Assembly: GCF_030704535.1 (NCBI RefSeq)
Contig: NC_081817.1
Span: 28,521,001-28,585,000, forward strand
DNA length: 64,000 bases
Direction of reading: 5' to 3'
Source: Vitis vinifera
Lineage: Eukaryota; Streptophyta; Magnoliopsida; Vitales; Vitaceae
Numbering within the stretch: position 1 is the stretch's first letter; the number at the start of each line of letters is the position of its first letter. The position numbers and the translations under genes were made by a program. Below are positions 9,308 to 49,853 of the stretch, piece by piece. Below the pieces are notes generated by a model. It searched no databases. It was not told the origin of the DNA and saw nothing but the letters and a program-made list of their open reading frames with translations.

Positions 9308-9402
9308 TTGTTTGCTTCCCAAGAAAATTAATGAAAAAAAAAAAAAAATCGTTTCGTTTTTCGTTTGTTTCATTTTCTTCTCACTTCTCAGCATCCAAAC
9401 GG
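9308..9402. repeat. inverted arm pair of the CCGTTTGG motif
   Basis: The arms are TTGTTTGCTTCCCAAGAAA (9308-9326) and CTTCTCAGCATCCAAACGG (9384-9402). The second is 17/19 identical to the reverse complement of the consensus seen at LSM7, COM1 and SUGP1; the first is 17/19 identical to the SUGP1 left arm. Here the pair lies about 280-370 bp 3' of the SAP stop codon. Confidence 0.6.
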
Positions 9403-11769
9403 GATCGAGATGGCAAGCGCTGTAAATATCAGGTGAGGTTTGGTTTTTTTGTCATTCACGACCCTGTCTAAAAGTTGTGGGGTCTACAGAAGGGATTGGT
9501 GGCGATATTATCGTGAGAAACTCGAACGAAAACTAAGGATAAATTACCACGATATAATCGAGGATTTGACACGTGTACATATAAACAATGCCGGAAATAA
9601 AAAGCTGTAAAGGGTGTGCGATGAGAACATTGTTTTTATATTTTTTGGGTGGTCGGGTGAGTTTACGTACTGCGATTGGTTTTGGATTGGAAGCGTATGT
9701 ATTTTTTTTCAAATATGGAAATCTCGAGAAGTATTTTGATCGAACGGTTGTGGTGGAAAGTGGGTGGACGGCGACAACGACGTCGTTTTGGAGGTAGGAA
9801 GTAATAAATATGGGGATGGGAAACTAGTGGCGCCCGTACAGGTTGTCAAATGTAGGAGACCACTCAGAAGAGAAGTGCTATACTGACATCACGCAGGTCG
9901 TCAGATGCCTAACCAATTGATAGTCGACACCTGTCAATTGTTTGAGCTCCCATTGGCTGCCATGGAAAAAAGACACGACTGCCATATGTGTCGGAAAGCA
10001 GTTATGTTTTAAGATGTTGACATAAAATAATTTTTTATAGTAAATAAAAAAAATTCGAGTCATTTCAGAACTTATTTCTTTATGAATTATTTAAAACAAT
10101 TAATAATTATTTTAAAGAATATTATCTAAAAAGAATATATACCTTTATGGAAAATAAATTTGGAATAATCAATAATTATTTTAAAATTTATTCTACAAAA
10201 CTAATTTCAAAACATTGTGAAATAGATCTTGGGATCATGAATTGTGCAAAAAGCGGAAGAAAATGCACTATACACGTCCTTTTTCTATCATGAAGAGCAT
10301 GAAAGGAAGAAGGTATGGAAAAGTCAATTAAATTTAAAATAAAATTTTTGTGTATATACCTTTCTTTTTTCCTTTTTTTTTAATCTTGTAATTTGTCAGT
10401 TTTAAACCCAAATAAATACTCATGATTTACCCGCTTTAAACCCAAATGGACACTCACCGTTTTAAAACACGTCTATAAAGTTAAAAAGAATTCATACTTA
10501 TATAACGTTAAAAATTTTCTCTTCTATCTGATATAGGATGTCACAAATAACAAATAATTTGAAATTTTATAAATTTTTAAATGAATTTTAGTTTAAATTT
10601 TTTTCTTCCTTAATAAATTGAACTTTTAAATTCTTTTGAGAGAATAATAAAAAGAAAGATGCAGATGAGAAGAGACGAAAAAAACATCGACCAGTGACCG
10701 ATTGTTAGAGTAGAGGCAGAAAAAAAATCTTACATCAAAATATATAACAAAAATATGGACTTCTTACTAATTATTGAGAAAGATTTTTTATGGCAAGTGA
10801 ATGATTGATTGTGATTTGACAAAATTATAATAAACACTGGAATAAAAAATGACTTATACAGGAGGAAAAGTAGATGGCAAATTACAAATGTGTTTTAAGT
10901 GATTTTAAAAACTGTTTTTAATATTTTTAACACTTAAATAATAAAAAAATTTAAGTGTTAAAAATATTAAAAACAATTTCTATAATCACTGTGAAATGAG
11001 CTCTAATAGCAGGACTTTCATAACATAACATTTCTGAGTTGATTATGTAGTTTTTCAATGCTTTCTCAGCCATAAGAGTTATTTCCCTAATCCTAAGATT
11101 CAAGTCTTAAATTTTCTTTTACATGATGAAAAGTAAAAAGAAAAAAAAGGAAAAAAAAAATCGGAAAAATAAATTCAAATTTAATAAAATTTTCTTGCAT
11201 GTTTATCTAAACTTATTCATTTTCTTTCCACTTCTACATGATGAAAATAGAACAAAAAAATAATAATAATGATGATAAGGTCAGAGACTAAATAATGCCA
11301 AATGAAATCATTAACAAAACAAGGAACATAGTCATTTCCAATACAAACATTAGTGACAAAAAATAGTTGGGACCAGCTAATAATGCTCCTTTCCTTTTCT
11401 TATTAATTTATTTATTTTTCCAAAAAGAAATTATTGTAATCACACTGCAACATGGTAGGGAATGATAGGAATCTTTCACATTCTAGGGCAAATACTCTGA
11501 ATAGAATATGAAAATTTTATAACAGTTGGGTAAGCAATAACATTACCATTTGTTGTTGTGGCTAATGATTAGAAATCATTCCCCAACCAGACACTCTTTG
11601 TGGAATTAATTAAAGATTTGTCAATCATGATGGTATGAAAACCTACCCCCCTTTTTTTTTAATTGCATTTTCTAGAAGGTGGTTGTTTAGAAGCATATTA
11701 AGGAAATTTTTTAATTTTCTTCATTATTTCATATTTAATGAAGCATTTATAATACAAATTAATTTCCAT
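9403..11769. other. intergenic DNA
   Basis: No gene is recognised. A CACGTGT sits near 9571. The frame at 9588-9797 has no domain. From about 10020 the sequence is AT-rich and includes the palindrome listed at 10888-11000. Confidence 0.5.
10888..11000. repeat. AT-rich palindromic MITE-like element
   Basis: The left arm (10899-10946, AGTGATTTTAAAAACTGTTT then TTAATATTTTTAACACTTAA) is closely mirrored by the right arm (10951-10990). It belongs to the same family as the palindromes at 35966-36060 and 48165-49445, which share the AATATTTTTAA(T/C)ACTTAA core. No coding capacity; non-autonomous. Confidence 0.65.
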
Positions 11770-12010
11770 TAAACCCAAATGGGCCCTGACCACCTTATGA
11801 CCAATAATCGGTCGGCAATCCCCATGGTAATGAGAAATCTACCCTAATAATGAGTAGTTTATTCTAACTGCTATTAGGACAAACCCAGGCATATGGACCC
11901 ATCCCTGGACCCCAAACCAGTTAAACTGCAGGGAGGCTTGAACTCAGGACCTCTGTTCATTGCTAGAGGGCAAGATATACCCTAGGGCATCTTTACCGGT
12001 TTACCCTTTG
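11770..12010 (-). repeat. possible tRNA-derived (SINE-like) repeat
   Basis: On the minus strand CCTGAGTTCAAGCCTCCCTG resembles a pol III B box, with a weak A-box-like segment upstream (around AAACCGGTAAAGATG). No poly-A tail or target-site duplication could be fixed, so this is tentative. Confidence 0.3.
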
Positions 12011-12334
12011 TTTGATCAAGCAATTGTCATCTAGGGCTTGTGGGGTTAGGCGTTGGAAAACCATGAACATGAGATCCAATTCAATTTGTGTATGGATTTT
12101 CTAAGTTGTCCAATAGTTAGGAACATTTTGTCTACAGATTACCTAAGATCAGCTAGAAACCAAGAGGATAGTTGATGCTTTGTCACCTTCACCCAGTTTT
12201 TGGTCTACCATTTCAGGGCACTGCACCTCAGAAAGGCCCACACCTTTTCCCTAGTGTCTACATGATACTTATATCTTCAATACACTTGCAGCTACTTGCT
12301 CCTAAAAAAACAAAGGGTAACAGTTGTATCATAC

Positions 12335-12616
12335 CTGGATCTGCATTTTCATCTGCCTCTGTCCCATTCCTCCAATGAATCCAACGCATTTCCCGGGGCC
12401 TATATAATCAATGAATAAACAACAACAATTGCAGGGACCAAGTTCAAGTGAATAACATCAAGATATCTTCATAAAGAATCTAAAGACAAAAAAACAAACC
12501 TGTAATTGCCAAGACAGGTTGCAGAGAAGAGAAGGGCTTTTCATAGGTTTTCACTGCCACCTGCTATGAAGATACGCAGTCCATTTCTCAGATAAGGGGC
12601 TTCAGCAAGAACAAAA
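12335..12616 (-). pseudogene. decayed 6PGDH/HIBADH-like dehydrogenase fragment
   Basis: On the minus strand one segment (about 12616-12499) reads ...FVLAEAPYLRNGLRIFIAGGSE and, after a one-base frameshift, TYEKPFSSLQPVLAIT. It is followed by GT...AG and a second segment (about 12401-12335) reading GPGKCVGFIGGMGQRQMKMQ before another GTATG donor. The order resembles the (V/L)DAPVSGG..G.L.IF.GG.SE...and G.GQ...K..N region of beta-hydroxyacid dehydrogenases. There is no start, no cofactor-binding domain and a frameshift, so it is at most a broken fragment. Similarity was judged by eye. It lies 3' of LSM7 on the same strand. Confidence 0.35.
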
Positions 12617-12650
12617 TTTGTGTTTGGATGTTCCAGGAGGATCGAATCAC

Positions 12651-12845
12651 TTCACTGTGTTTTACACAGCAATTATGCTATCAATGGCATATCATTGAAA
12701 TATTTCTTTTTGTTAGAATTTATTTAAACTGAAGTCATTTTGGGATTTCAATGAACGACCTCATTTATCTTATATATCTGACTTTTTCCTATTATAGTGT
12801 CAATGAATATAGTTCGCACAACCAACTTGTGTAAAACACAATGAA
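12651..12845. repeat. 195-bp inverted-repeat element
   Basis: The left end TTCACTGTGTTTTACACAG (12651-12669) mirrors the right end, whose reverse complement is TTCATTGTGTTTTACACAAG (to 12845). The interior is AT-rich with no ORF. Target-site duplications are not obvious. Confidence 0.4.
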
Positions 12846-13110
12846 TTTGTTCCAGGGGAGAGGCATCTAAACACCCATCACAGTAATTAGCAAACCAGTT
12901 GGAACACATGTAACATCAAAAGGCAATTTTACCATTTCATATCATAGATGACATAACTTGGGTACAAAATAGACTAAATTCATACTCTCCATAATCTCCC
13001 CCTTGGGAATAGGGTGTCTTGTGGAAAATTAAAAGGAAAATAAAAGAGCAAAAGGCATAGTGATGTGAATCCAGCTATTCTTTAAAACATAAAAATGAAG
13101 ATGATAAAGT

Positions 13111-16100
13111 CTAGGCCCCATCTGGCTGGATAAAAGGGTTAGCAATCTCATCTGTGCCATCAGTTGGTGACACCAGCATTACTGCAGTTCCCCTACAAAC
13201 CTGCAGTAATTACACACTATCAATTACAGAAAAAGAAAAAGAAAAAGAAAAAGAAAAATGTATTCGCATCATATGACTTTTTGTGAGCACAAACCCTCAC
13301 CATTTTTTCAAGAAAAATAAAGTATATATATGGCAGGGCAATGACCCACAAAGCTTTAAAATGAGATGGATATCTGATGATTGTAGGAATTTTGATTATT
13401 CCCATTTTATTTAAACCTGTCCTGAACCTTATTAGGGAAAAAATCCCAGATAAAATTGTCTGAAACCCTCCAATCATGACATGTTTCCAGCATTAACACT
13501 CCACTGCTAAATGTGCACCACATGCCAGAATTTTGTAACACAGTTCTCTCAGATGCAAATTTCCATTTTCAAGCTCACGCGCATGAAAAAAAACACAATA
13601 TGAGAGAACATACTATTAGGCCAAGGCGCCTGGTTTGATCTGTAGTCTTCTGTGGATCATCTGGATCTGCAGCAAAAAGCAAGAACAGAAAATCAACTAT
13701 CTGCACTCTCTGCCAGCAAATAATCATTACCAACAACAACGATAATAGATAAACTTCTTTTTTAAGAGAGTTCTAACTACTCTCAGAAAGAGAGTAGTGG
13801 TTTCCATTACAGATGCTTAAAGCAGTTCTTGGGAAGGCATGCACAAATTCAGTTGGACTGATCATTGGTTACAAAGTGAAGGTTAATTCATCATGGAGCA
13901 TACATAACAACAAAACAACCTAAGGTAACAATAACTAATCTTTTAAAAGATGATAACAACACTCTGCAATAGCTAAAGAATCCTATGGGAGCACATTTAC
14001 ATTTTATACATGAGTATATTAAACAAAAGGAGGCTATTTTAGCATATTTTGTAATAATCAACACACACAGCCACATTCGCCCAGTTATTTGGGTTTTTAA
14101 GTTACTATCATGTAAGGAAAAACTTGATTTCATAATATGAATCATTTACTAAGAAAAAGGCATTAGAAAGCTTAAATGCCAAGCCTCCGAAAGCACAATT
14201 TTCCTATTTTGAGCCCTTGATCATATGATAGATTTGGTGTATCAAAAAGTTTGCCATTTCTGATTGTCAGACTGGTAATCATCTCATAGACAGGCTACTT
14301 TACATAATTTCCATGACTGAATAATTTCCAACCAGTCAAGTTCAGTTGCAGGTTAATAATCCCTAATGAATCAGTGACAAAAGGACTTACCTAATTGTCC
14401 AATTCCCAAACTGAAAGCATGGAAAATTTTCAGTTCTGGCATGTAACTCGAGAATTTTCAAGCACATGAGAAATCAGTATGGGTCAGAATCAACTCAATT
14501 AAGAAGCCACAACAATTGCCCACATCATTCCTAGTCATCAAAAAGGGCCTCCCCAATTAAATGAAACTCGTTTGAGTTTAAAACATAAAATAAACATGGA
14601 AAAATGTACTGCTCCAAGCATTGAAGAAGAGTGCATGTATGCAGCAAAGAGGAAAAAGATTGCATGTTTCATGGAGACTTAGTAAACCATGAATAGGCCA
14701 CTGCACTTTCTGAGGTTGCCCACAGCATTCCTAGTTATCAAAATAGGCCTTGCTAATTAAATGAAACTTGTTTGAGTTTAAAACATAAAATAAATATGGA
14801 AAAATATACTTATCCAGGCAACAAAGAAGAGTGCATGTATGCAGCAAAGAAGAAAGAGATTGCATATTACATGGAGACTTAGTAAACCATGAATAGGCAG
14901 ACCACTGCACCTTCTGATTGCTCAGAAAGCATGGTGGAATGAGAATACAATCTTAGTCATTTGCTAATCGTAAATGGCCCACAGAAAGAACAACAGCTTA
15001 GTGGGGAGATATAGAGTCGTAAGTGGGAGGGCCTTAAGGCCTGGCTTAAGTGGTAAAGGGTTGGGGGGGGGGTGTTTATGGGAAGTTCCAGGTTCAAGTC
15101 CCAATGGGGACAAAAAAAAAAGGAATTAACTATAAAATAAAAGAGTGATAAGTGAGAGGTCTAGGAAGAACAGGAACACAACAGAATGCTTTTCTGAGGA
15201 CCTAGTGCCAGTGATAACAGAAGTTAAAATGATAAACAAAATGATGGAATGTCCAATGAGATGGTGTTGTCAAAATCAAGATCAATCAACACATAGTGCA
15301 TGATGTAGGTTTACCAAAACAAGGGACATATTGCAAAAGGGCATGTCAATTGAGAAAGCAAGAAACAACTCAATGGCTTATGATTTAGAGAAAGATATGG
15401 CCTTGAAAAAGATAGGATCCTTTTCAGTTGCAACCACTAAAAACCATAGGAAGAACACACACACACATAAAACATACAGGAAAATGTTGCACCATGAGCT
15501 ATGGTTACTTAAAAACTTGTGTTTAATTTAAAATATCTTTGATATTTTATAGACAAGGTTAAAGAGAAATTGATTGTTAAAGTCTTTTATCATGTTCAGA
15601 AGTAAAAGTTTGTTAAGAGGACTTTGACATAACCATGAACACACCATGCAGAATTTTACTCATACAAATTTTTTGACAAAACAAACAAAGAAATAAATAG
15701 TTGCCTCATCAGCCTCAACATTTTGAGGCTCAGGAGATGGGACCCTTAAGAGGTGCATCAAGGTCACTTTGTTGTATCCTTTATGCAACCTTAAAGTGCA
15801 TCCTTGATGATTTCCAAAAATGAGGCTGCCATCAAAGCATAGGATGAATACCATCTGTCTAAACAGATAGGCCATGGGCTCCTAAGGATGGGCCTCAAGG
15901 GTTTCCTTGAGTCTCACGTTGAAGCAAGAACTTTGCATGCCTGTGATAGATTACCTCATCTTCTTGGGCAAGTAATTGGTGTGTTTGTCAATGCTAGAAA
16001 AGACCAGGAATATGTACATGCCTTGATCTCCACGTCTATTGTCCTCAATGAAGAAATACTTTCAACTAGAAATGTTCATCACAAAAATTAATGATTTTTG

Positions 16101-17630
16101 ACATGCAACAAAATAAGAATAGATGAATGCTGGTCCACAGCATGACAAGTGGTGATTCAGTACTACTTATGAATTATATATTTGATAAGAGTGCGATACC
16201 ATCTTTCAGACAAAAAACAATAATATCATCATTCCTTCTCCTAGGAACAGAAGATTGCATCCAAAAGAATCAAAAACAAACTACATCCAACTAAAAATAG
16301 TTTGAAGTGATTTACCTCTTAAAAACTCTACAGCTTCATCCAAGACAAGGTTTAGCAACTGATCATAACCTTTTAGCGTCCCTGTTACTGTAACCAAAAA
16401 CATCATTTGATTAGATAGTAGCACATCATCAATGAAGCAGGCCCTCAGAATAAAACAACCAAGGGTGATAAATAAATTACTAGACATGAGGAGGAGCAAT
16501 TCATTCTTGGCTTCAAAGGAAAAGATATATCTAGATTACTTTGAGTCTGTCTGTGTGTGGGTGTGTTATAATCCGTGTTTGTGTGAAGACAGATTAGGAA
16601 GAAGGAATATGTAAAATAGAAAATTTTCAACTTGTAGATTAGATCATCACAGTGGCAAGTTACACATGCATATCTCTGTCTATGATAAAAAATAAAAAAA
16701 AAGGTTAATTTCATATGATAGATGGCCATAAAAGCCCCTGAAATCAGAACTAGGTGAAACATAAAAATCCAACAGCCTGAACACAAGGTAAATGATATCC
16801 TGCATGTTGCAAGAGAGAGAGATAGCGAGAGCAAACAACCAGTCCTGTGTTCATCTCATTAATTTTAAGTTTAAAAAAATTACCCACGTTCTATCACTAT
16901 TCTTAAGGCTCTCTTCAATAACATTTGTCTTTTATGGCATTGCTATTTGGTTCCCATTGTATACCTCTTGTATACTTTTGTGCACTACCTTTTTTCCCAA
17001 TATTTATAGACAAAGAAAAAAACTCCCTTCCTTAACATTTTAAGGCTTTTATAAAATATAGTCGTTTCATGTGTGACAAAGCCAACCAATCCAATGGCAA
17101 TTCCACAACTGTAATCGTAAACCTGTTCTTCCATTTTGATTAGAAAAAAACTACTGCTTTTCTATGTTTTTTCATTGAAAAAGGTTTCAATTCAATGCTG
17201 ATAAGCTGGATAGTCTTTTGATTGCAAAAATACTAATTAGTTGAATTCCAAACACACACTCAAAGCAAAGCAAACAAAACTGACAAATCATACAGTGTAG
17301 CAGATAGAGGAAGGTTTACACAAATGGCAGATAAAGTACTTCAAGCAAACTATAAGTATAAATACTTGAGAGAAAGAGGAGAAAATTCAAGACCTTGTCT
17401 TCCACCAGTAAGCTTAACTTGAACACCCTTGTCCACGAACTTCGCCAGATCCAAAACTGTTTCTTTCCTTCCTGACTGAAACAGAGTTTCATAACACCAC
17501 ATATCATACTGTATCAACATTCAAGTAACGGGGGAGAGAGAGAGAGAGCAACTATCTCTATTTTCTGTATTTTCATCTTTCTCGTACAAAAATCGATACA
17601 CCGATATGTAGAGGGAGAGACCGTTACCAT
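13111..17630 (-). CDS. LSM7: U6 snRNA-associated Sm-like protein LSm7 (99 aa)
   Basis: LSm7 is a subunit of the LSm1-7 ring (cytoplasmic mRNA decapping and decay) and of the LSm2-8 ring (nuclear, U6 snRNA 3' end). The coding exons on the minus strand are 17630-17628 (ATG only), 17475-17394, 16387-16316, 13666-13614 and 13200-13111, all with GT/AG junctions and continuous frame: 300 nt, 99 aa, the same length as I recall for the plant family. The Sm1 motif is in exons 2-3 (SGRKETVLDLAKFVDKGVQV, then TGTLKGYDQLLNLVLDEAVE) and Sm2 is in the last exon (VCRGTAVMLVSPTDGTDEIA). The start codon is the last three bases of its exon, immediately before GTAACG. Large introns (up to 2.6 kb) hold a 200-bp tandem duplication and a SINE. 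A non-coding first exon near 18050-18100 is likely but not fixed. Confidence 0.93.
13228..13257. repeat. (AAAAAG)n microsatellite
   Basis: About five copies of AAAAAG lie in the last intron of LSM7, 28 bp upstream of the last exon in transcript sense. Confidence 0.8.
14518..14918. repeat. two-copy 200-bp tandem duplication in LSM7 intron
   Basis: Copy 1 at 14518-14717 and copy 2 at 14718-about 14918 are in the same orientation. Shared blocks include CATTCCTAGT(C/T)ATCAAAA, GTTTGAGTTTAAAACATAAA, AGAGTGCATGTATGCAGCAA and GGAGACTTAGTAAACCATGA. The divergence suggests an old event. It is intronic with no coding signal. Confidence 0.85.
15031..15142 (+). repeat. short tRNA-derived SINE
   Basis: It has an A-box-like TGGCTTAAGTGG, a G run, a B-box-like GGTTCAAGTCCC, GGGGAC and an A-rich tail. 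Imperfect 17-bp direct repeats flank it (15014-15030 GAGTCGTAAGTGGGAGG and 15143-15159 GAGTGATAAGTGAGAGG, 14/17). It lies in the large LSM7 intron, antisense to the gene. The degraded copies at 1156 and 1766 are relatives. Confidence 0.6.
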
Positions 17631-17754
17631 ATTGCTTGATTTTTTTTGAGCTCCTCTTTCAATCCTCGGAGACAGAGAGAACAAGTTCAATTCTGTTAAA
17701 CAAAAACAAAACTGCTAGCGTTGTTATCTCAGAATATCACAAAACCCTAATCCT

Positions 17755-17923
17755 CCGTTTGGTTGCTGGGAAATGGCAAGAAAACAAAACAAGAAGGGAA
17801 ATAAAATTAACTAAAAAATGAAAGTGAAATTCAACAGCATCCAATAACACTCAAACCCTAAAACCTCTTACAAAACTCCAAAATTTGCCGTTTATTTCCT
17901 GCAATTTCTCAGCAGCCAAACGG
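17755..17923. repeat. inverted arm pair of the CCGTTTGG motif, LSM7 5' region
   Basis: The left arm CCGTTTGGTTGCTGGGAAA (17755-17773) and right arm TTTCTCAGCAGCCAAACGG (17905-17923) are reverse complements apart from two positions; similarity continues weakly inward. They lie 125-295 bp upstream of the LSM7 start codon, in its 5' UTR or 5' intron. It could be a MITE or a conserved 5'-intron structure. Confidence 0.7.
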
Positions 17924-18119
17924 ACAGTAAAATGAAGGAAACTTACGTAAATGCTTAGAAAAAAAAATAATGACGAAATTGAATCAAGTAACTTATAAGT
18001 ATATATAGACAGAGAGATTACTGTTGTGGTGGTGAATCAATGGCTACGCTGAGACCGAAGCAGCGGCGCGAGAGAGAGCGTTTTGACTTTTGAGTATCGA
18101 GCTGTGGATTCATGTGCCA

Positions 18120-21100: not shown

Positions 21101-21280
21101 CAATTATTGTTACCACATTGTTTAAAAAGAAAAAGGAAATTTTCGAATAATTTTTTTTCCGTTATCAAAAAATTGTTCTAAGTTAGAAAATATATTTTTT
21201 AAATTTTTTGTTATTATTTTATTTCCTTTGTAATTCTCTCAAACTTTCCGCTAACCAAAGATAGCCTTAATCATTGCGGT
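18120..21280. other. AT-rich intergenic DNA between LSM7 and eL31
   Basis: No gene is seen. CTGTTTGGCTACGAGGAGAA near 18140 resembles the CCGTTTGG arm but has no clear partner. A two-copy repeat lies at 19922-20075 and (TA)n near 20861-20881. The rest is low-complexity A/T sequence without long frames. Confidence 0.5.
19922..20075. repeat. two-copy tandem repeat, about 75 bp
   Basis: The unit begins TGTTTTCAAATTGA(C/A)ATATT and ends near ACCTATATCATTT. The second copy starts at about 19997. Non-coding. Confidence 0.7.
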
Positions 21281-21289
21281 TGGACCGGG

Positions 21290-25939: not shown

Positions 25940-26193
25940 GCGTTCTTTGGGCGTTTCTGTCATTGATCGCTCACATTTTCTTCGTGCTCATACCTTTCTC
26001 ACAGCAATCGCAGTGTTTCTGTTGCGATCTCTGTGAGCTTTCAGTTTCTAGAAATCTGTTTGGCTGTAGAGAAAAGGCGGGAAAGTTAAAGAAGCTGGAG
26101 TTGTTTTACTCGCTGGGTTTTTTTTGTTTGGAAGCGGAGAAAATGCAATCCTGAAGTCGACTGGACTCGATACAACTAATTGGCTTAGCTGAG
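25940..26193 (+). other. putative 5'-UTR exon of the COM1-like gene
   Basis: A pyrimidine-rich, more GC-balanced stretch after long AT-rich DNA ends in GCTGAG followed by GTGAGT (donor at 26194). The matching acceptor TTTCTAG ends at 27386, two bases before the start codon. This implies a 1.19-kb 5'-UTR intron. The transcription start is inferred only. Confidence 0.5.
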
Positions 26194-26280
26194 GTGAGTT
26201 TTTTTTTTTCCTTAGTTTGGGGAAACCGAAACAACATAATTCCTGAGATTTGGAATGCTCTTTTCTCAGCAACCAAACGG
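26056..26280. repeat. inverted arm pair of the CCGTTTGG motif, COM1 5' region
   Basis: The left arm CTGTTTGGCTGTAGAGAAA (26056-26074) lies in the presumed 5'-UTR exon. The right arm TTTCTCAGCAACCAAACGG (26262-26280) lies just inside the 5'-UTR intron and is exactly the reverse complement of the consensus. The two arms bracket the splice donor at 26194. Confidence 0.6.
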
Positions 26281-27388
26281 AGTGTTGATTTGCTTCTGTG
26301 ATTGCTTGGTTTCGAAGAAAGGTAAGTTAGTTAAATGCTTACACGAAATTGTGATATTAATATTTAGTTTCGATTTGCTTTTAATTGAAAGGCTCATTTC
26401 CTCTGCAATCCTGAAATCGTGTAGCGCGTTGGATAATCATTTAGGTAGAATCATGAAAGAAAGCGATCTGAGTACGTAGGGAAAATGGCATTGCAGATAA
26501 CATGATTTGACCATGTGAATTTGGTTGCGATTTTTTTCTTAGCATCAGTGTTCTGTTGTTTCCTATTTTGAATTTGTATTGTGCCAAAAAAATTGGGGAT
26601 TTCAGTTAGTTTAACTATTGTAATGATGTTATTATGAGTTTTTGGAGAGTTAAGATTAGTTGTGAAATTAGAGAAATAATGTAGGACTATGTTCTTGAGC
26701 GGCAACCATACTAGGCCTACGTATTCTGAAACTAGTCTTGTGCTATGAAGATATGAATAGAAGTGGGGTCAGGCATAATTTTGATGGTTAAGCGGACTAT
26801 TGAGTTGGCTTAAGAAAAATGCTTTGAAAACAAATAATGTCTTAAAAACCTGTTAAAATGAAAACAAACTGAACATGATAGTCATTTTTGCTTTGAATTG
26901 AAAGTTAAAAATGATGATTTACAAGTATGTATTCGAGGTGGATTGCTTGTATACATTTCTCTCTGATTGGGCTTTTATGTACTATAGAACATATCTATTT
27001 TTCTGAAGAAAAAACTTGAAAACTATGAAATTGGTAATAAGTACTTGAAGGACTATAGGAGATAAATCATATTGTTGATGAACTTAAGGGACTAAAGAGG
27101 ATGAACTTATCGAACATTGCTTATCATTTCTGTTTTAGATTTGTGAAAATAAGGACTTCTGCAGACACTTTCTTGCTTGAGGTTCTAGTGGGGACTTCCA
27201 AATTTTTGGGATTGTTCTCCAAGTTCCTAACAGAACTTTTATTAGTGGTAATAAATATTTATTACCACTTAGCCATCCTAAGTATTTGCACCAACTGCAT
27301 CTATTTTCTTCAGAATAAGATTAATATATTGGGTGCTACTGACCACTATCTAATCTCATATGGGTCACATTCTTTGATATTTCTAGAG

Positions 27389-30171: not shown

Positions 30172-30480
30172 TTGGTAGCAGGTAGAACTGGCAAAAATAT
30201 CTATCTATTGTGTCTAATTTCCACCCTAAACATATTTTGCCGGTTCTACCTGCTACCAATAGTTGAAGCCATTTTTCATGTGTATCTAAATACTCGAAAT
30301 ATCTATCTGTTGTGTCTGATTTCCACCCTAAACATATTTTGTCAGTTCTACCTGCTACCAATAGTTGAAGCCATTTTTCATGTGTATCTAAATATCTATC
30401 TTTTGTGTCTAATTTCCACCCTAAACATATTTTGCCAGTTCTACCTGCTACCAATAGTTGAAGCCATTTTTCATGTGTAT
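30172..30480. repeat. three-copy minisatellite with an inverted leading arm
   Basis: Units run 30197-30298, 30299-30391 and 30392-30480 (102, 93 and 89 bp), each starting ATATCTATC and ending CATTTTTCATGTGTAT. The 25 bp just before them (30172-30196, TTGGTAGCAGGTAGAACTGG) is the inverse complement of the block at 30235-30259 inside unit 1 (one mismatch) and of unit 3 (no mismatch), so a hairpin can form. Confidence 0.85.

Positions 30481-36690: not shown

Positions 36691-36731
<41 letters not shown>
36690..36731. repeat. (AAT)n microsatellite
   Basis: About 14 copies of AAT, preceded by a long T run; likely highly variable between accessions. Confidence 0.9.
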
Positions 36732-36733
<2 letters not shown>

Positions 36734-38903: not shown

Positions 38904-39617
38904 TGTTGAGGTCTCGCGTTCCTGGTGATCCACGTGGTTACCAAATGGATGAACGCACGATCTCAACCAATATAAATTCTTGATTCAGTCGTTCCACCTG
39001 CAAAAGGCGTCCGGATGGGGTGTCCGGACGCACCCTCTGATGGTTTTTTCAGCCATGGTTAGAGAGAGATAAATCAATTGGCCTTTTACTAGGTATAGTA
39101 AGCTCATCTTCCCCTTTGTGTGAAGGTTTGTATATATAGTATCAGAAGCTTTGTTCCCCTCTTTAATGGTGGGGAGATATTTTGTGTTGTCATGATGGAC
39201 ACTAGGTGGTGACAGGGCCATCATCACCATAAGGGCGGCTGACAGAGATCGTAGTAGGTGATCATGTGAAGTGATCGTGGGAAGTGACTTGTTGTCCCTT
39301 CATCTTGTCCTTTCACTCTGCAGATGGCGAGATGTGGGCCATGATAAGCTGTTGTGATAACGTGCAAGACTTGCTTTCCTCAGTCAATGATCCGGACAAA
39401 CATACCTGGATAGTGTATGTCGGTTTTCCGGATGCGCTGTGACAGTCGTCCGGATGTTATATTTGTGAGTGTCGTGTGCCTTTCCTTGAACCGGATAGGA
39501 AAGGCGCGCCACGTGTACTCTTGGGGAAATCCGGATGAGGGTGATCCGGATGATAATGCGTGCCACGTGTCATAACGAGGTGTGTGGCACGTGTTATCAT
39601 GAGGAGGGGTCCCTACA
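38904..39617. mobile_element. solo LTR (714 bp), probably Gypsy-type
   Basis: The block starts TGTTGAGG and ends CCCTACA (TG...CA ends), with 5-bp flanks GAATC (38899-38903) and GAACC (39618-39622), one mismatch apart. It is more GC-rich than its AT-rich neighbours. It holds eight CCGGA cores (39011-39546) and four CACGTG boxes (38931, 39510, 39564, 39588). A TATATATA lies near 39130. No internal retrotransposon genes or second LTR are nearby, so it is a solo LTR. Minus orientation is favoured because TGTAGGGACCCC looks like a typical LTR start, but this is not certain. Confidence 0.7.
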
Positions 39618-41009
39618 GAACCTATTATTCGTAATAGAAAATTTAAGAAGAATAAATTTTGAATTTAGGTGGAATAAATTTCCTATTATATGTATCCGTT
39701 GTGCTTTACTTGAACATGGGAATAGTTGAAATATTTATTTGATTGAAAAAGTATTATTCATATAATATATTATTTCACTAAAATACAATGAAATTTCAAA
39801 ACGGAAAATAATTAAAAAAAAAACACTTTGCTAAACTATCTATAAAACAATTGAATCAATAACACCTCTAGATTGCACTTCTTTCCTGTGTTACGAGTGA
39901 AAGAGAAAATGTAAAAATTATCATTAAAATAGTTCAACTAAAACTTATTTTATTCATATGAATTACATCATTTATATATGAAAGAATTTTTTCATTATTC
40001 CTCGCTAATAATAGTGGAATGGACAATGCAGAGTCAAAAAATGATTCTAACACGATGAACCAATTTCATAAATCCACTTATAACAAAACAAGTATAAAAA
40101 TGATAAATAAGCACAATAAATATGAAGTAATGAAAATATTTTTTTAATTTTAATTATATTTTAAAATTTTTCTTTCCCTCCTTTTTTTTCTCTCCTTATT
40201 TTCTTTGAAACTTTTTAGGAACCAAACATACACTAAATGTAATTTGTGACAAAAACTATTACCCTAATCGATTTGATATCGGTTTTTTCCCTTTTTAGTG
40301 TGACACCCAAAAACTATTTTTGGGTAACATAGAATAACACTAATGGAAGATATGAATTGGATTAAGAACATTTTTGTTCATTATCCACCTACCCAAGAAC
40401 TATTCTTGGGTAGAAATAGAATGACACTCTAATGGATAATATTAAAATCCATGATAGTTGGATTGCACATGAAAGGAGAAGTGCATTGATTGAATATTTT
40501 GTAGATAACAATGCCCCAATTATTTATTTATTTTTTACTTATATTTTACAAATATTTGTGTATGAGTAACCATGTGCAACTACCACTTCTTATTAAATGC
40601 ACACCAAATCAGGACTGCAGTGTTATTGAAGGCAGCGGTGAACAGAAGACACAAGCAATTGTCTTCGTGGCTCCCGTCTTTTTCTATATTTTAATTGTTC
40701 TAACCATTTCAGAAAATCATGGACTTGTGTTGGCTTTTTTTGTGAGTAAAATATGAAAATTAAATAAATAAATAAAATTGAAGTGGGTTTGCTTGTGGAG
40801 GGTTGAAATTTGACTTTGTTTTTCTCTTTCTTTGTTTGGATTTTTTTTTTTTTTTTTAAGGATGGTTTTGTCCATCTTCTATTATTCAAATTATTTATAA
40901 GTTAGCATATAATTTTAAAAATTTAACATCTGAATTTGGAAAATAATTTTCAATATTCAAATTAATTCATTATTAAATAAATTAAATATTAAAATTTGAA
41001 TTCATTAGG
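39618..41009. other. AT-rich intergenic DNA with paired hairpins
   Basis: No gene is recognised; the frames at 40511-40756 and 40623-40889 lack domains. It contains the two hairpins listed at 40305-40411. Confidence 0.45.
40305..40411. repeat. two related 21-bp hairpins
   Basis: The 21 bp at 40305-40325 (ACCCAAAAAC...TTTTTGGGT) and at 40391-40411 (ACCCAAGAAC...TTCTTGGGT) are each perfect or near-perfect palindromes with the loop ACTAT. Each is followed by TAGAATAACACTAATGG or TAGAATGACACTCTAATGG, so a larger unit (about 86 bp period) was duplicated. Confidence 0.75.
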
Positions 41010-41162
41010 GTAGTTTAGTTGATTAAGACAAACACTTGAAAATATGGTTCCAATAAGTAACGCATAATATGAGTTTGAACCCTACCGATGATGATACCTT
41101 GAATTTACTCGGTGTTGGCCATTATGAAGCGGTTAGTACCCCTTATAAAAAAAAAAAAAAAA
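41010..41162 (+). repeat. tRNA-derived SINE with poly-A tail
   Basis: It has an A-box-like TAGTTTAGTTGATTAAGAC, a B-box-like GAGTTTGAACCCTACC and an A run ending at the repeat TTGAATTTATTAGG (41163-41176). The left flank has TTGAATTCATTAGG (40996-41009): 14-bp target-site duplication with one mismatch. Confidence 0.75.
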
Positions 41163-43467
41163 TTGAATTTATTAGGTTCTGGATGATTGAAATGAGTTTT
41201 ATTTTATACGTTTTTTTAACATAAATTTACATAATTTTTAGAAATTTATTTATTTTTAAAAAAATTCAAATTTCTTCAAATTTGCTAATTTAGAAATGGG
41301 AGAACCCTTACAAACTTTTTAATCAAGCAAACGAATTTTGTATTTCTCAAATTATTTTTTTAATTATTAATTCCAATTTTTGGAATTTATTATAACATGG
41401 AATAACATGCAAAAGAAGCACATGCAACTGACTCAGTGTGGGGCCATAAGGTCCAACACTGATCCCCCACTAAAGGCTGTCAGTGGGCCACTTCAAAGCA
41501 GGCTTCAACAAGTGGGCTGGCCGGCCCATAACACAAAACCACTTTTGGGTTGGCCCACATTGCTTGAAACTATAACTTTTGAGATTGGCCTCCATGTGGA
41601 GCCCGGTTTGGGCCCTATACCATGTTGGGCCCCACTTGTGGACCATGGTCAGTGGGACGGAAGATTAATTGTCTCACGAAAAATAATCAATTTTACCACA
41701 TGATTACACGATAATTGGTAATTAAAATCCTAAAAAAGTAACTATTAATTTTATTAATAATAATAATAATATTAATTCATTTAAATTTTCCTTCTTAATT
41801 AAGAATATTTACGTTGACTTGTTTTCTAATTTTTTATTGTAAAAAATAAATATTATATATAATAATTATAATGAATTAAATGCTTAATCAATTAATTATT
41901 TCAAAATATATATTATTTTTAGTATGAGAAAAAAAAAGGGGGGGGGGGGGGGGGGGGGGGGGGCGGGGCGGGGGAGGAGGAGGTGTCGGAGAAGAATGGT
42001 GGGGACAATGATATGAGATTTTGAATGACAAAATTTTGAAAAGACATCATAACCAAGGGTTGAGAATGAGCCACGTGGCAATATCCAAATATGGTGGCCA
42101 ACATCGCATGATTAAGAACATGGGTGTGTGTTGTACTGATTACGACATGATTCAAAAGTGGTCACGTGGATAAGTCAACAATTCCCCTCATCTATGTGAT
42201 TATAATATTTTCTAAGTTCACGTATTATTATAATATTAGATTTTTTTATAAAATAAAAAAAATTAAAAATATTCTTATAAATATTTTAATTCATAAGGGA
42301 ATAAATATTATAAAATAGAGATAGTTCGTAAATATTATATAAGAAAAATAGAGAAATAAGAAAGAATGAGATGACTCGTGATTTAGAGTATGAATATAGG
42401 GAGTGTGTAAACATTGAATGTTTCGAAAATTCAATGATTTTATCTAATTTCTTTTTTCATAACATTTATATGTTATAGTGAAATGATTTTCTCTCATCCA
42501 TGAATGTAAACCTGGTTAATCGGACCGCCCTTCCATTGACACAACAATTTTTCTATCTTCTGATTGAAACAAGAGATGGGGATATATGCCATGTGCAATG
42601 CATATGAAGTAAAGATGACATTTCATAAACCAGTTAACTTGTAGCTTGGAAATATCCCATTTAGGATAAAAGCCAAGGTGTAGAAACCCTAAAAGAAATA
42701 TCCCGTATGGGAAAAAGGCCAAGATGTTGAAACCTAGACAAATACAATGCATCATGGTCATGTACAAGTGGAAAGTGTGAGTTGGACCACCAAATGTCAT
42801 CCAAAAAATATGATCATATGATGATCGATCATGTTATCGTTTCTTTGTATCTTGCTAATGATCTCAATTTTTTTGTACTTGGGTTGTATCTTGGGAATCA
42901 TCTCATTTTATTTATTTATTTATTTATTTTAAATCTTATCATATTTTATTTAACCAATCAAACACAATGTAATGTCAATTCTATAGGTTGGCCCAAAAGT
43001 TTTAGGCCAAAGCCCAGCCCTACTCATGCCACAGCCCAATACCACCCGGCCCAACCACATTATGGCCAAGTGGGCCAGTTTTTTTTTTAAGTTTTAAGTC
43101 CTTTTGAAAATTTGGCCCAGCCTACATTCAATGCAATTTCCATATTTTAAGGGGGGGAAAAACTAAAATAGGATAAAAAGAGGTCTCCCAACCTTTGTGA
43201 ATGGGTAATGTATAAGAAAATAATTAGTTATTTCAAGTTGCCGATGGGATGCATTTCTTGTTTTTTTAAAATAAAAATTAATAATAACGCTTCTATAAAA
43301 TACAAGTAATTTTACGATATGTTTGATAGTAATTATAGAAAACATTTTTAATCTATAAAACGAAACTAACGTTAGGAACACACAAACACCCGGTGATCAT
43401 AAGTCATAACTAATTAAAGAATAACTAAAGAACATAAGGAAGTTACCAATTTTCAGTCTCCAACTAT
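41163..43467. other. intergenic DNA with TGGGCC-rich patches
   Basis: Two GC-richer patches (about 41440-41650 and 42990-43080) hold several GGCCCA/TGGGCC motifs, which resemble site II promoter elements, but no gene is seen beside them. The rest is AT-rich, with an (ATTT)n run at 42907-42930. Confidence 0.4.
41938..41975 (+). repeat. poly-G tract (26 G, then GGGG and GGGGG blocks)
   Basis: A run of 26 G (41938-41963) is followed by C, GGGG, C and GGGGG. It follows an A run. Such a tract can form G-quadruplexes and is often length-variable and hard to assemble, so its exact length is unsure. Confidence 0.85.
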
Positions 43468-43652
43468 AGCCTTGTTTAGGAGAGCTTCTTAAACGCTAAA
43501 AATAACGGTTTTTAAGAGTATTCCAAAAAGTAAGGAGAAATATGCTTTTTCTTTCAAACTTGGTATTGAAAACTCAATTGAATCGAAATAATAATTACTT
43601 CTACTTCTTCTATCGGTAAACGGAGAAGTTAAACGCTATCCCAAACAAGGCT
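43468..43652. repeat. 185-bp MITE
   Basis: The ends are inverted: left AGCCTTGTTTAGGAGAGCTT and the reverse complement of the right, AGCCTTGTTTGGGATAGCGT. Both are followed by a TTAAACG or TTTAAC stretch. The interior is non-coding. The target-site duplication is not clear. It is just downstream of the methyltransferase stop. Confidence 0.75.
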
Positions 43653-43839
43653 TTATGTATCTTTGGCTTCAAAGACGGATCATCTCTAATCAAGCAACAA
43701 ATAAAACCGGCTTTGCAAGCAGGTATTTCATGGAAAATTATATGCATGAGAATAATCTATAACAACCGCCATAAAAACTTGAGGCCTTCTCTTTCAATTC
43801 AGATTGCTAGGAAATAATGAAGTTCTGATATAATTGAAT

Positions 43840-46800
43840 TCATGCAAAAATGTCTTCAGTAAGAAATGATTTGCTGCTATCAGTAGGAGGATCAGATGGG
43901 AATTGAAGTTGCTCATAGTTTAGCTGTCTGGATGCTTCATATAAAGCAATGCCAACACTCACAGAGAGATTCAAACATCTAACATAAGTTTCAACCATTG
44001 GGATTCGAATTGTACCACCGCCAAGGGCTTCACTCTTGCAGTCAAGCAGAGCTTCAGGTGGTAGCCCACAAGTTTCCGAGCCGAATATGAGCCAATCTCC
44101 TTTTCTATAGGAGAAATCCTGAAAGAATATAAAGCAACATGTCTGATTCCTAAAAATGTTCATATATATATGAAATTTGATGATGTGTATCTAGTGAACA
44201 CACACATGACAGAAAGAAAACCAAGAAAGATGGCAATAAAGAGAAACCCATCATCGTTCTTAGTGTTACACTACATACTTTCAATCAGGAAAAATCCTTC
44301 ATAATTTTTATTTTTTTTTTTATATCTGTGGATGTCCAGGCCAGCTTACGCGCACCTCGACTAATCCCACAGGGCTCTGAAGTTAACGACCGGGTAAACC
44401 TCCAGTAGCCTTGAGGGGACTCGAACTGGTGACCATTGGGGAGCAAACCCAAGACCGGACCAACTGAGCTACCCCTCAGGGTTGGAAAAATCCTTCATAA
44501 TTGATGAGACAAAAGGGAGGGGCAACTTACAGAATGAATGTTTGTTCCTCTCTTGGTAAATGCCAACAACCGCTTTTCTCCTTCCTGCACCAAAAGGAGA
44601 GAACATATAGAATTTAAGGGAAAGCGCTAGGTGGGCTTTCAGAATCCATTATTGAAGATAAGGAAAAACCTGTTGTCTGAAATATTCCCGAAATTCTGCC
44701 CACGAGTCATGAACTTTAACAACCACATATCTAGTACAAAAGAGTTAATTGTTGACATAGTCACAACTTTTTTGTTGCAAGTTAGTTCATAACAATTTGA
44801 GTACATGGCAGATATCAAATTTAATAAAACAACTGCAGAAACTATAGTTGGAGATCTAGAAGTTTGAATGAGTCACTGACCCTCTGAAGATTAATTATTA
44901 AGAATCCTGCATGTCATGTCAAGCCTGACAGGCAAGCATGTGAACCAGCAATTGTATCATAAATTACAAAAACAGATATTCAACTAAAATCAACAAAATG
45001 TTTACTCCCAATTACTTGAGTTCGGCTCAACTACATGAATCCTTCTTTTTCAATCTATCTAAATTTCTAAACCATATTTTCTATTGAGCAGACATGTCCA
45101 TATAAAGAATGCCACTCAATTGCTATGAACCTCAGGGCATTAGGAAATGAAACATAGAAAAAAAAAAAGCTTACCACACCCTTTAAATTCTAATCACAGT
45201 TTATGAAAATAACCTATTGTACAAATAGAACAGATTTGCTAGGATACGGCCAATAATCCAACCCAGCACGCTTCAGTTTTGCATCATCCACCTGAAATCC
45301 TAATGGCTGGAGGGATATAAAACTTCAACATTGTTAGAAGTAAACCTAATGTAAGCATCTTAAAAGACAAAAGAGAAGGACTAGAGGGGTGACAATAGGC
45401 AACTTCTACCTCGATTAGGTGAAGTCCAACAGCTGATGCTGCACATGTTCTGGCAATGGTTCCTGTGTTCCCAGGAATCTGCAAGGAACAAGAAAATCTC
45501 AGAGCCAGCCTCAAGAAATTGAAGCTGTTGGCAACCCAAAAGAAAAAGAAAAGTATTGTCACTTGTGGAGTCGCAGAGTTTTAGAATTTACCACATGATT
45601 GTTGTGTAAAATTGGAAAAAATAATAAATTAAATTAAGAAGAATTGTGAGAAAGAGGAAGTTACAAAAGTGGGAAAAACGCACAAACTTCATTCTTTAAA
45701 AATTTAAGTAATAACCTATTCGATTGTTTACTTCCAATGTACCAAACAGAATTGACAAAGGCATGGACACAAACCCCAACAAATTGGGTACACTAATCAC
45801 CAAAAATCCAACCAAGTGGCATTTCTAGTTAATATTCTTGTTCTTTTTTACAGTGGTACCATTCCTTTTATCAAATCAGTTGCTTGCATTGTCCAGAGAA
45901 GACGTGTTTAACACTACATCCAATGGTTCATGGAGATTTGATGCCTTTTGCCATTATGGACAGGAGACAATCTAAAAGGAGACAAATTAAGTTTAAGGAC
46001 ACAGGTTCCTAATGTGAAAGAAATGTGTCCATGAGGTTGAATGGGACTAGTTATCATCAAGACTCTGAAACTGCTAAGCTATATTGTTTAAGAAATCCAT
46101 CAACCTGATCTGAAATAAGGATAAGTCCAGCCTCTTTCCTGGAAAATGGAACCCCAAAAAATATAAGATAAACCATTTTCCATCACTTCAAAAAAGTCCA
46201 GCTCTCTCATCACAATAGCCTACATGGTATTGCTCCAGAATGGGAGTTTTCCAGGGTTTGTTGCCAACACCATTTCTAAAGCAAACTATGTTACCTACTG
46301 TTTCCTTAAAAATTTATAATCACTCATTTTTTTCCCATCATTTCCCCGTTCTTAGATACCAATTTTCTGCTCCATGAAGTGCTACACCAAAAGTCCTAAT
46401 CTTATCCATGTTCATGTTTCATATTCATCAAAAGATTTGAAATTTCGGACAGATGCACACTGCACACTCATGTAACACACATATAACACATCAACAAAAC
46501 ACTATAACCATCCATAACAATTCTGCTATAACGGGTCTCGATTTCCAGAAAAAACGTATAACCTTTTCCACCCAACACACCTGGTTTCAGATATATAGAT
46601 GCGCAAATTCTCATAAACACCTAGTCACATCTTCTACAAAAATCATAATTTTGAATACATACATAAACACGCTTAAGCATAAATATAACAACACACTAAC
46701 AACATACCCTCAAACAATTCTGCTATGAAGGATCTTAATTTCTACTATGTATACGTAAGAGATCATCTGAAAAACATAATTCAGTACCAAAACCCCACTT

Positions 46801-47242
46801 CAATCACCAATAATATCACTTGCCACTCAGAAAACCCAATTGAAACAAAACCAATTACCAGATTTTCGATATCATTACCTGAGGAGAAACCAAAACCACC
46901 TGAAGAAGCCTGTTATTGGAGATTTCAGCAACTCTCTCACCAGCACCATTAGGCAATGAACTGTCACTGCCTCTTTTAGCTGCACCCACAAAAAAGATAC
47001 AGAAATTAAGCTAAAAAAATGGAAAAATCCCTACTATGAAGAAGGTTATGCGGGTTCAATTCTACGAAAGAGAAAGAAAGCAAAAGGGAGCAAAGAGGAA
47101 AATATGGAGTACAGAGAGAGCAAATGGGATAGAAGCGGTTTCTGTGGACTTGGTGGAGGAAAAATGGGCGAAAGAGAGAGACCCTTGTACGGAAATGAAA
47201 AGGGGCTATGGCGTTTAGGGTTTTGAGACTGGTGGAATCCAT
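43840..47242 (-). CDS. SPOUT/TrmL-like tRNA 2'-O-methyltransferase
   Basis: Homologous TrmL enzymes transfer methyl from SAM to the 2'-OH of wobble nucleotide 34 of tRNA (family knowledge). Fixed exons on the minus strand: 46979-46879, 45478-45410, 45306-45248, 44730-44670, 44584-44531 and 44118-43840, all in frame. They encode LQVVLVSPQ, IPGNTGTIARTCAASAVGLH, GFQVDDAKLKRAGLDYWPYV, DSWAEFREYF, LLAFTKRG, then DWLIFGSETCGLPPE and the knot region IRIPMVETYVRCLNLSVSVG with IALYEA. These are the three SPOUT motifs. Exon 1 (ATG at 47242) is proposed, with an N-terminal extension suggesting organelle targeting; its donor is unsure (GTACTCC near 47135 fits the phase). One intron carries a SINE; another looks U12-type. 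Confidence 0.88.
44288..44502 (-). mobile_element. tRNA-derived SINE in methyltransferase intron
   Basis: A perfect 19-bp target-site duplication (GGAAAAATCCTTCATAATT) flanks it at 44288-44306 and 44484-44502. The body (44307-44483), read on minus, begins CCCTGAGGGGTAGCTCAGTTGG (A box TAGCTCAGTTGG), has the B box GGTCACCAGTTCGAGTCC, then the tail half GATTAGTCGAGGTGCGCGTA and a terminal A-rich stretch (T-run on +). Sense matches the host gene, within the last intron (44119-44530). The perfect duplication suggests a fairly recent insertion. Confidence 0.92.
44731..45247 (-). other. probable U12-type intron of the methyltransferase gene
   Basis: The 5' end reads GTATCCTAGC (45247 down), close to the U12 consensus GTATCCTTT, and interrupts the codon CC|A within the conserved DYWPYV motif. 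TTAAC (44748-44744) lies 14 nt before the terminal AG, at the expected branch distance. Length 517 bp. Only the core TTAAC of the U12 branch site is matched, so the call is probable. Confidence 0.6.
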
Positions 47243-48164
47243 TCCAGGCGTCTGTCTCCGCCGCTGCCGGTGGGTGTGGAGCAGCGGAGGTGGCTGTGGG
47301 TTTTGGATTTGAGGTTTCTGTTTTATCCTAATGTTTGAATTAGAAATGACTCCTTATCGTAGACTCTCTCTCTTTCTCCCTCCTTTTTTCCACCTTTTTT
47401 ATTTTTCCCCTTTTTTTTGTCTTTTTTTTTTTTTAAATAAATTAATATGTTATGTGCATTTTTTAAAATTTTTTGTAGAATTGGTAATTAATTTTTATAA
47501 TTAGCCTGGAGTAATACGTGTCCACAATCTTTAATTGATTTGTTAAGGACATTCAATCAACCAAATTAATTAAAATCAGAGGTGACAATTTGTGTTGGTG
47601 GGTCGTGTTCGTATCATGTCAAAACTTATGTATTCTACAACATGACTCAACCCAAACCCGATAACAAATTTATGACTCGATTGACTTATTTATTAAAAAA
47701 TAAATGTAAAATGAAGCAAGTTTAAGATAAATAATTGAAAGAAGTAATTAAGTTAATAGTGGGATTACTAGATGGATTAATTTGGGGTTAAATTCATATT
47801 ATACAAATTGATCCAAAAGTTATTTATTAAACAAGTTTATGCAGATTGAAAAATATTTGACTCAAACTCATTTATATTCAACAAAAACATGTGAAAAAAC
47901 ATATTAAGATCACGTTGTGTCCATGAATCATGTCAAACTGTGTCATCTTATATGAAATATAAAACTTTGGTCATTATATTTTTAATTAGAAGTTTAAGTT
48001 ATGGTAAAATTATGATTTTTTAGGGATAAAAAAGTTATCACCGGGATGAGTAATATTAGTGTTATTTATACTCAAATAATCAATATTCTTATAAATGTAA
48101 GCATTTTTTAAAAAATAAATTATGGCAAAAACGTAATAATATAACTTTTACGTTATAACAATCA
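47243..48164. other. methyltransferase upstream region and AT-rich DNA
   Basis: The first 150 bp holds pyrimidine-rich promoter-type sequence of the minus-strand gene. From about 47440 on, the sequence is AT-rich. A GTGACAATTTGTGTTGG...GTCGTGTTCG segment around 47580-47960 looks like a degraded repeat. No gene is seen. Confidence 0.45.
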
Positions 48165-49445
48165 TCTATTATTATGTGAGAAAATGATTATAGAAAGTGT
48201 TTATAGTTTTTTAATATCTTAAAGACAACATTTTTTAAGTGTTATAAAAATTAAAAACACTTCCTAAAATCACTTTTAAATTTATTAACAAATACATCGT
48301 CTTTCTGTTGCAAAATAATACAAGTGATTTTTTTAATACTATAAATGATTTAAAATTTTTTTTAAAGTATTTCATAAATTTTGTCAAATACTTATTATTA
48401 ACTTTTTAACGTAAAAAAAATGTTTTCTAAACTCGTTGTCAAATGAACTCTAAGTAATTTTAAATTTTTTTAAAAGTGTTTTATAAATTTTACTAAACAC
48501 TTCCGTTTGATAATAAGTCTAAAAGACACGTTTAACCTTTTTGATACTTGAAAATTTTTATATTTCAAGTATTAAAATAGTTAAAAAAACTTTATAAAAT
48601 CACTATAAAAAAGTAAAAAAAATAAAAACACATTTGATAGTGATCCTATAAAATGTTTATAATTTTTATAATACTTGAAAATAAAAATTTTCAAGAGTTA
48701 TAAATGCTATAAACATTTTTTAAAATCACAATTAAACGCATTTGAGTGTGTTTGACAATGATTTTAGCAAACCTTTATAATATTTATAATACTTGAATGA
48801 TAAAAAAAATTAAAGTGCTTGAGAAATATTGGAAATGCTTCCTAAAAATACTATGAAACACACTCAATATTTGTTCAAAAACATTTTTTTTTAATTAATA
48901 ATGTGTTTGACAGTAATTTTATGAAACGTCTTTAATATTTTTAATACTTAAATGATAAAAATTTTAAAGTGTTAAAAATATTAAAAACACTTTCTATAAT
49001 CACTATCGAACATACTCTTATAAATATTTATTAAAATTATTATCAAATGAACTTTTAAAATCAAAGCATAATTAATAAAATTAGCTATAAACCTACAATA
49101 ACATTACAACTATTAACCTTAAAAAACTTTGCTTTATTGATGATGCCATTAAAATTTGCATAATAAAACCCAAAACATTTTAGGAATCACTTTGTCTTGA
49201 GATCTTATTTTTCATCCAAAGCAAAATGACATGTCTAAGAATATGTTTAATAGTAATTTTAGAAAACTTTTTTAACTTTAAGCATTTGATAAAATTTGGG
49301 AAACGCTTTTAAAAATAAAAAAAATCACTTGTAGTATTAAAAAATCATTTATAGTGTTTTATGAAAAATATTTGATAGACGATTCTCTTAAAAATATTCG
49401 TAGAGAAAACACTTTTACTAAAAACACGGTCAAACACGTTTTAAT
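48165..49445. repeat. array of related AT-rich palindromic MITE-like repeats
   Basis: At least six units follow one another: about 48165-48290, 48510-48625, 48626-48740, 48745-48870, 48898-49020 and 49240-49445, with further degraded units between 48300 and 48500. Typical parts are ends like TGTGTTTGACA(G/A)T and mirrored CACTTT..TATAATCACTATC, with a centre like TTAATACTTAAATGATAAAA. They resemble 10888-11000 and 35966-36060. No ORF. Confidence 0.75.
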
Positions 49446-49599
49446 GTTTTATTATTATTCCATGAAGGGGTAAAATGTTATTTAAAAAAGAAGAGGGGCC
49501 TTTTAAAATATTATAAATTACTGGTCCAATTTGACTATTTTCATAAAGTTTAGTGGCAAAACTGAAAATTCATCTACGTATAAAATGCCCCACCCAATA

Positions 49600-49692
49600 C
49601 ACCTAATTCGCCCTTCGCTCCAGCGCGATTCGCGATCTCTGGTTTAGGGTTTCGTCAATTTCTCCGACCAGAAGGTGGAGATTTAAGATCAG
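49600..49692 (+). promoter_or_regulatory. telo-box and 5'-UTR exon of SUGP1-like gene
   Basis: TAGGGTTT at 49645-49652 (reverse complement of the telo-box) lies in a GC-balanced stretch after AT-rich DNA. GATCAG followed by GTAACT gives a donor at 49693, so this is probably the 5'-UTR first exon. The likely acceptor is near 52052 (TTGTCAG), giving a 2.36-kb 5'-UTR intron. Confidence 0.55.
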
Positions 49693-49729
49693 GTAACTCT
49701 TTTGATACGTGTTTCGCTTCATCGTTTCT

Positions 49730-49853
49730 TTGTTTGGTTGCCAAGAAACCACTGGAAAATAATTGAAAACCCCGGAATCTCATAGCAGCCGGTGTGAAAT
49801 TCCGTCCTTTTTTCTCCTGTTATTTTACTAAGGTTTCTCGGGAACCGAACCGG
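49730..49853. repeat. inverted arm pair of the CCGTTTGG motif, SUGP1 intron 1
   Basis: The left arm TTGTTTGGTTGCCAAGAAA (49730-49748) begins 37 bp inside intron 1. The right arm TTTCTCGGGAACCGAACCGG (49834-49853) matches the consensus reverse complement with a few changes and one extra base. Spacing is about 85 bp between arms. Confidence 0.5.

Follow-up and report, generated by a model that had tools for sequence, protein, structure and literature searches.

A sequence-specific inverted element recurs at four loci in the window, the whole 64,000-nt stretch of Vitis vinifera DNA analysed here. It consists of a CYGTTTGGNTGCYGAGAAA arm, about six free bases and then GAAA, arranged as a head-to-head pair around 57–187 nt of unrelated DNA. 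Our preferred reading, which we hold tentatively and at somewhat less than an even chance, is that the element frames short 5' leader introns and probably began long ago as a mobile element; that the pairs are nothing more than transposon relics is almost as likely. An earlier note on this DNA had described eight arms in four head-to-head pairs, and all of them were found at their positions when we rescored the sequence against the consensus arm type, the 19-mer CCGTTTGGTTGCTGAGAAA, which was derived from the same arms being scored. The exact consensus arm that the note saw in COM1 is also there (26262, minus strand, 19/19). The matches, however, range over 13–19/19 and not over the claimed 15–19/19, because the arm at 9308 reaches 13/19. 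The arms are as follows.

9308..9326, plus strand: locus 1, arm 1, 13/19, the weakest of the arms
9384..9402, minus strand: locus 1, arm 2, 17/19; its plus-strand reading contains the acceptor-like CTTCTCAG, which ends at 9391
17905..17923, minus strand: locus 2 (LSM7, gene on the minus strand), arm 1 in gene direction, 18/19
17755..17773, plus strand: locus 2 (LSM7), arm 2, 18/19; its minus-strand reading contains TTTCCCAG
26056..26074, plus strand: locus 3 (COM1), arm 1, 15/19
26124..26142, plus strand: locus 3 (COM1), an extra copy like arm 1 within the loop, 14/19
26262..26280, minus strand: locus 3 (COM1), arm 2, 19/19; its plus-strand reading contains TTTCTCAG, which ends at 26269
49730..49748, plus strand: locus 4 (SUGP1), arm 1, 15/19
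49834..49852, minus strand: locus 4 (SUGP1), arm 2, 15/19; the acceptor position is GG, not AG

Random occurrence of these arms, which the note held to be improbable, is indeed contradicted by the counts. With at most three mismatches the 19-mer matched four times in the window, compared with 0.01 expected from 100 shuffles, and at 15/19 or better there were eight single matches (seven of the eight arms and an unrelated one at 14910), compared with 0.125 expected from 40 order-2 Markov windows. Pairs in forward-then-reverse order (at least 13/19, no more than 400 nt apart) numbered five, which are the four loci with COM1 counted twice owing to the copy at 26124, whereas 60 simulated windows gave a mean of 0.28 and a maximum of 2; the reverse-then-forward (tail-to-tail) order was seen once, in COM1, against 0.33 expected. 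With a weight matrix, which was built from the same eight arms and is therefore circular for those arms, the four loci scored 47.7–58.1 bits; the runner-up pair in the window reached 17.9 bits, the top score over 20 simulated windows was 24.5, and the best single arm in the window outside the four loci scored 14.6 bits (at 40211). The window is generally rich in inverted repeats (544 pairs within 500 nt with a length of 16 nt or more, the longest 25 of them mostly AT-rich), and what is distinctive is the shared arm sequence, not inverted repeats as such. Long AT-rich inverted repeats are densely clustered at 48164–49057 and probably represent nested or decayed transposon ends.

The arms exceed the reported length. 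The 19 conserved nucleotides, eight columns of which are invariant, are followed by a lapse of about 6 bases and then by GAAA in six of the eight arms (AAA in seven), the exceptions to GAAA being COM1 arm 2 and SUGP1 arm 2, the latter with TAAA. Outer columns such as −14, −6, 33, 36 and 38 reached nominal p < 0.01, uncorrected for 60 columns, and the LSM7 arms are 87% complementary over a length of 30 nt. The loops of loci 1 to 4, which are 57, 131, 187 and 85 nt long, shared no match longer than 12 nt when the four loci were compared, and the 12-nt match is poly-A/T. Well-kept arms around unrelated inner DNA are hard to obtain by neutral decay alone, and for this reason we favour an element of leader introns over decayed copies.

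Gene context and splice-like sites

The earlier note had placed three of the pairs (LSM7, COM1, SUGP1) at 5' leaders, in or beside a 5' intron. The gene content and the nearby donor-like sites agree with this placement, while the leader introns rest on inferred gene models. The exon-joined LSM7 peptide contains an LSM domain and has the LSm7 chain 3jcr_7 as its best PDB match (E 9.3e-36), COM1 is identified by a SAE2/CtIP C-terminal domain at 28.9–29.8 kb, and SUGP1 by a partial G-patch match at 56.7–57.1 kb, to which a SURP-like exon recognised by eye can be added. The fourth pair, at locus 1, is 3' of an A20/AN1 zinc-finger gene and starts 276 nt past its stop codon; we recognised no gene led by this pair up to the 3' end of LSM7 in the ORF lists, inspected by eye. 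Two A20/AN1 zinc-finger genes (stress-associated protein type), at 3249–3770 and 8504–9031, share a strand and are separated by about 5 kb, both with an uninterrupted coding frame.

Beyond what the note described, arm 2 in gene direction resembles a 3' splice site: it reads TTTC, six free bases and TTTCTCAG, a pyrimidine tract with an AG, and after the putative cut CANCCAAACGG. This geometry was noticed post hoc, with p values uncorrected for other looks, and donors and acceptors were scored with a home-made scheme based on plant consensus values. An AG stands at the acceptor position in three of the four second arms (loci 1, 2 and 3), compared with one of four at the mirrored place of arm 1, and these three AGs fall between the 96.5th and 99.3rd percentiles of all AGs in the window by the home-made score. 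At loci 1, 3 and 4 a GTRAG donor follows arm 2 after 30, 41 and 21 nt, respectively; a GTRAG would turn up by chance within 42 nt with a probability of 0.045 per locus, which gives 3.5e-4 for at least three of four loci (post hoc and uncorrected). Outward of arm 1 on the other strand, GTRAG is absent from the first 42 nt at all four loci. LSM7 lacks a GTRAG in the 400 nt that follow arm 2 and has only a GTAAC at 127 nt. The candidate sites and the possible exon at locus 1 are as follows.

9392..9432, plus strand: possible 41-nt exon of locus 1, between the acceptor-like AG of arm 2 and a donor-like CAG/GTGAGG at 9433
17941..17946, minus strand: candidate donor GTAAGT at LSM7, 23 nt ahead of arm 1; fails the home-made score threshold
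26033..26038, plus strand: candidate donor GTGAGC at COM1, 23 nt ahead of arm 1; weak, and fails the home-made threshold
26194, plus strand: stronger donor GTGAGT between the COM1 arms
26322..26327, plus strand: candidate donor GTAAGT at COM1, 41 nt past arm 2
49693..49698, plus strand: candidate donor GTAACT at SUGP1, 37 nt ahead of arm 1
49874..49879, plus strand: candidate donor GTAAGT at SUGP1, 21 nt past arm 2

For LSM7 and COM1 the implied introns would measure 181 and 237 nt, and for SUGP1, using a different AG, 140 nt; at locus 1 the nearest donor-like site before arm 1 is 288 nt away. In the home-made acceptor scan, locus 1 alone among the arm-2 acceptors passes the threshold, and it is the sole passing acceptor in its region. 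Acceptors scoring better than arm 2 were found at 17954, 17811 and 17693 for LSM7 and at 26215 for COM1, with none at SUGP1. The COM1 donor at 26194 would give a 76-nt intron and leave arm 1 exonic. Set against intron ends, all of which are predicted sites, the pairs present an acceptor-like AG in three of the four second arms and donor-like sites nearby, with mixed home-made scores.

These positions outline how an element framing leader introns might act. At LSM7, COM1 and SUGP1 a 5' splice site would lie 23–37 nt ahead of arm 1, arm 2 would supply the pyrimidine tract and, at LSM7 and COM1, also the AG of the 3' splice site, and a short leader exon with another donor behind it would follow arm 2. 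Arms able to pair would hold the ends of the leader intron together, so that the element would most likely influence if this intron is removed and which splice sites are used. The presence of identical words at unrelated genes points either to common descent, that is, a mobile origin, or to a shared binding partner. The shared sequence, which goes beyond mere complementarity, suggests an old mobile origin as terminal inverted repeats, with the arms kept afterwards.

Several further features accompany the loci. The exon-like stretch at 9392–9432, just 3' of the zinc-finger gene, contains an ATG and eight codons to a stop if unspliced. The COM1 leader has another weak arm-like copy, TTGCTTGGTTTCGAAGAAA (13/19), at 26302–26320, which ends just before the GTAAGT donor at 26322. 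A 16-nt direct repeat in COM1, TGCAATCCTGAARTCG (15/16 alike), at 26144–26159 and 26404–26419, surrounds a 244-nt stretch with arm 2 and could be the footprint of an insertion or of a local duplication. Direct repeats of similar quality were found at a few other sites in the window, under a complexity filter that excluded the COM1 repeat itself, and because of these comparable repeats we do not build upon it. Downstream of COM1, at about 30209–30460, there is a local direct-repeat array with spacings of 93, 102 and 195 nt.

Pairing of the arms

The note had also proposed a conserved intronic structure acting on splicing or transcription. This proposal is weakened, as the arms of a locus pair no better than swapped arms and have no excess of G-U pairs, although four loci give little power. 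We found no covariation between the arms: the duplex energies of the own-locus arms ranked 2 of 24 against swapped arms (low power with four loci), and the core identities within loci (11, 17, 15 and 14) were no better than those between loci. Selection on RNA pairing would favour G-U mismatches, and there was no such wobble bias among the mismatches (6 G-U against 7 A-C). Predicted folds close on the arms at three of the four loci, with the arms unpaired at locus 1, and the folding z values of loci 1 to 4 were −1.5, −3.4, −1.7 and −1.9. Across the whole window no Rfam family matched at the gathering score. Given neither covariation nor wobble bias, we reject strict conservation of an RNA stem, at the low power of four loci.

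Transposon relics, DNA-level sites and chance

The strongest competitor to an element of leader introns is that the pairs are remnants of an ancient MITE or foldback family, with CCGTTTGG at its termini, whose copies tended to insert near gene ends and have no function today; we consider this quite possible, if short of probable. The splice-like look of arm 2 would then be a by-product of a pyrimidine-rich strand. Relics would explain why the same sequence stands at unrelated genes in strict head-to-head order, why arms of one locus resemble each other no more than arms of different loci do, which is expected if copies decay independently, why G-U and A-C mismatches are alike in number, and why one of the four loci is 3' of a gene. 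They fit less well with the flanks and the interiors. Exact target-site duplications around the pairs were 2–3 nt, against a random mode of 3, and the best degenerate duplications of the four named pairs scored 0.50–0.625, against a random median of 0.625; an alternative COM1 pairing gave 0.75, inside the random 90% value of 0.78. Neither exact nor degenerate duplications therefore rise above random, no inner sequence is common to the copies beyond the 12 nt of poly-A/T, and the window holds no solitary strong arm. Grapevine hAT and Mutator elements are reported to make 8- and 9-bp duplications (PMC2528002, in the part available). The plain MITE that the note had offered thus keeps its inverted arms, common to four loci, but lacks a target-site duplication above background and related loops. 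Like plant MITEs and non-autonomous TIR transposons, the pairs put short inverted termini at several loci near genes; unlike them, they come without target-site duplications and without shared inner sequence. A recent MITE insertion was rejected on account of the same two absences.

A protein-binding site present in two copies near the transcription start, resembling intron-mediated enhancement (IME) and acting without RNA pairing or splicing, is in our view distinctly unlikely. Such a site would account for an arm sequence conserved without covariation and for three pairs near gene starts, and plant IME signals are reported to be active within ~1 kb of the start independently of splicing (PMC7411622, in the accessible portion). 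The fixed head-to-head order, however, is not expected for sites of this kind. The IME motif TTNGATYTG has 19 matches in the window, none inside an arm, and only the nearest, at 26369 in COM1, is within ~100 nt of one. One Arabidopsis paper on first-intron motifs (PMC8157754), string-searched in its main text, contained none of the short arm strings. IME signals (TTNGATYTG, CGATT) share with the arms that they are repeated words in promoter-proximal plant introns, but, as far as the available text of PMC7411622 describes them, they differ in sequence and are shorter, dispersed and unpaired.

Chance similarity picked by eye is very improbable: a single window was examined and the consensus was drawn from the same arms, but the shuffle, Markov, pair-simulation and weight-matrix counts all contradict it, and we reject it at the level of this window.

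Occurrence elsewhere and meaning

Such words are, by our impression, common in dicot first introns, and we do not use this as evidence. Among the papers listed by letter-string and topic searches of the literature, none was seen to describe the motif. The accessible portions of papers with string matches include primer tables for Weigela, grapevine VvGIN1 and mulberry, the mulberry primer continuing into TGCAG as does LSM7 arm 1, and papers on Hamamelis, pepper and barley that match an 11-nt string only; the other matches were mostly in non-plant papers, e.g. PMC12599655 and PMC4009273 (E. coli). The plant matches hint that the arm word may occur in other dicots. A prokaryotic source was rejected, the exact 19-mer being found in 2 genome contigs against ~1.9 expected for uniform bases, and so was a viral source (the 19-mer in 0 viral contigs, a 17-mer in 10).

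Two further known systems come close to the pairs. Conserved complementary intronic segments of the IRBIS kind likewise comprise two complementary segments able to bridge splice sites. Those segments are, as we understand them, specific to one gene, whereas here one sequence recurs at unrelated genes and without covariation. With introners the pairs share inverted repeats at or near inferred intron ends and an acceptor-like site inside one arm. Introners, however, are described in the available text of a survey (PMC9860276) as whole introns alike in sequence, whereas here only the arms are alike, the loops are unrelated and no duplications were seen; in that same text the survey reports no introners in land plants.

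A wider reading, possible but doubtful, is that the element frames short leader introns in many genes, perhaps across dicots; arm 2 would provide a 3' splice site ready for use, and its complement, arm 1, would follow the 5' splice site closely on the intron side. If so, the first splicing step of the genes that carry it would be under one common control, possibly following the domestication of transposon ends that created the leader introns. Should the pair indeed frame the leader introns of many genes, plant first introns would have in it a sequence signal of unusual length, and a repeated element would be tied directly to leader splicing and expression. If the arms are an old transposon end, they would exemplify, in land plants, inverted repeats that act as splice sites.
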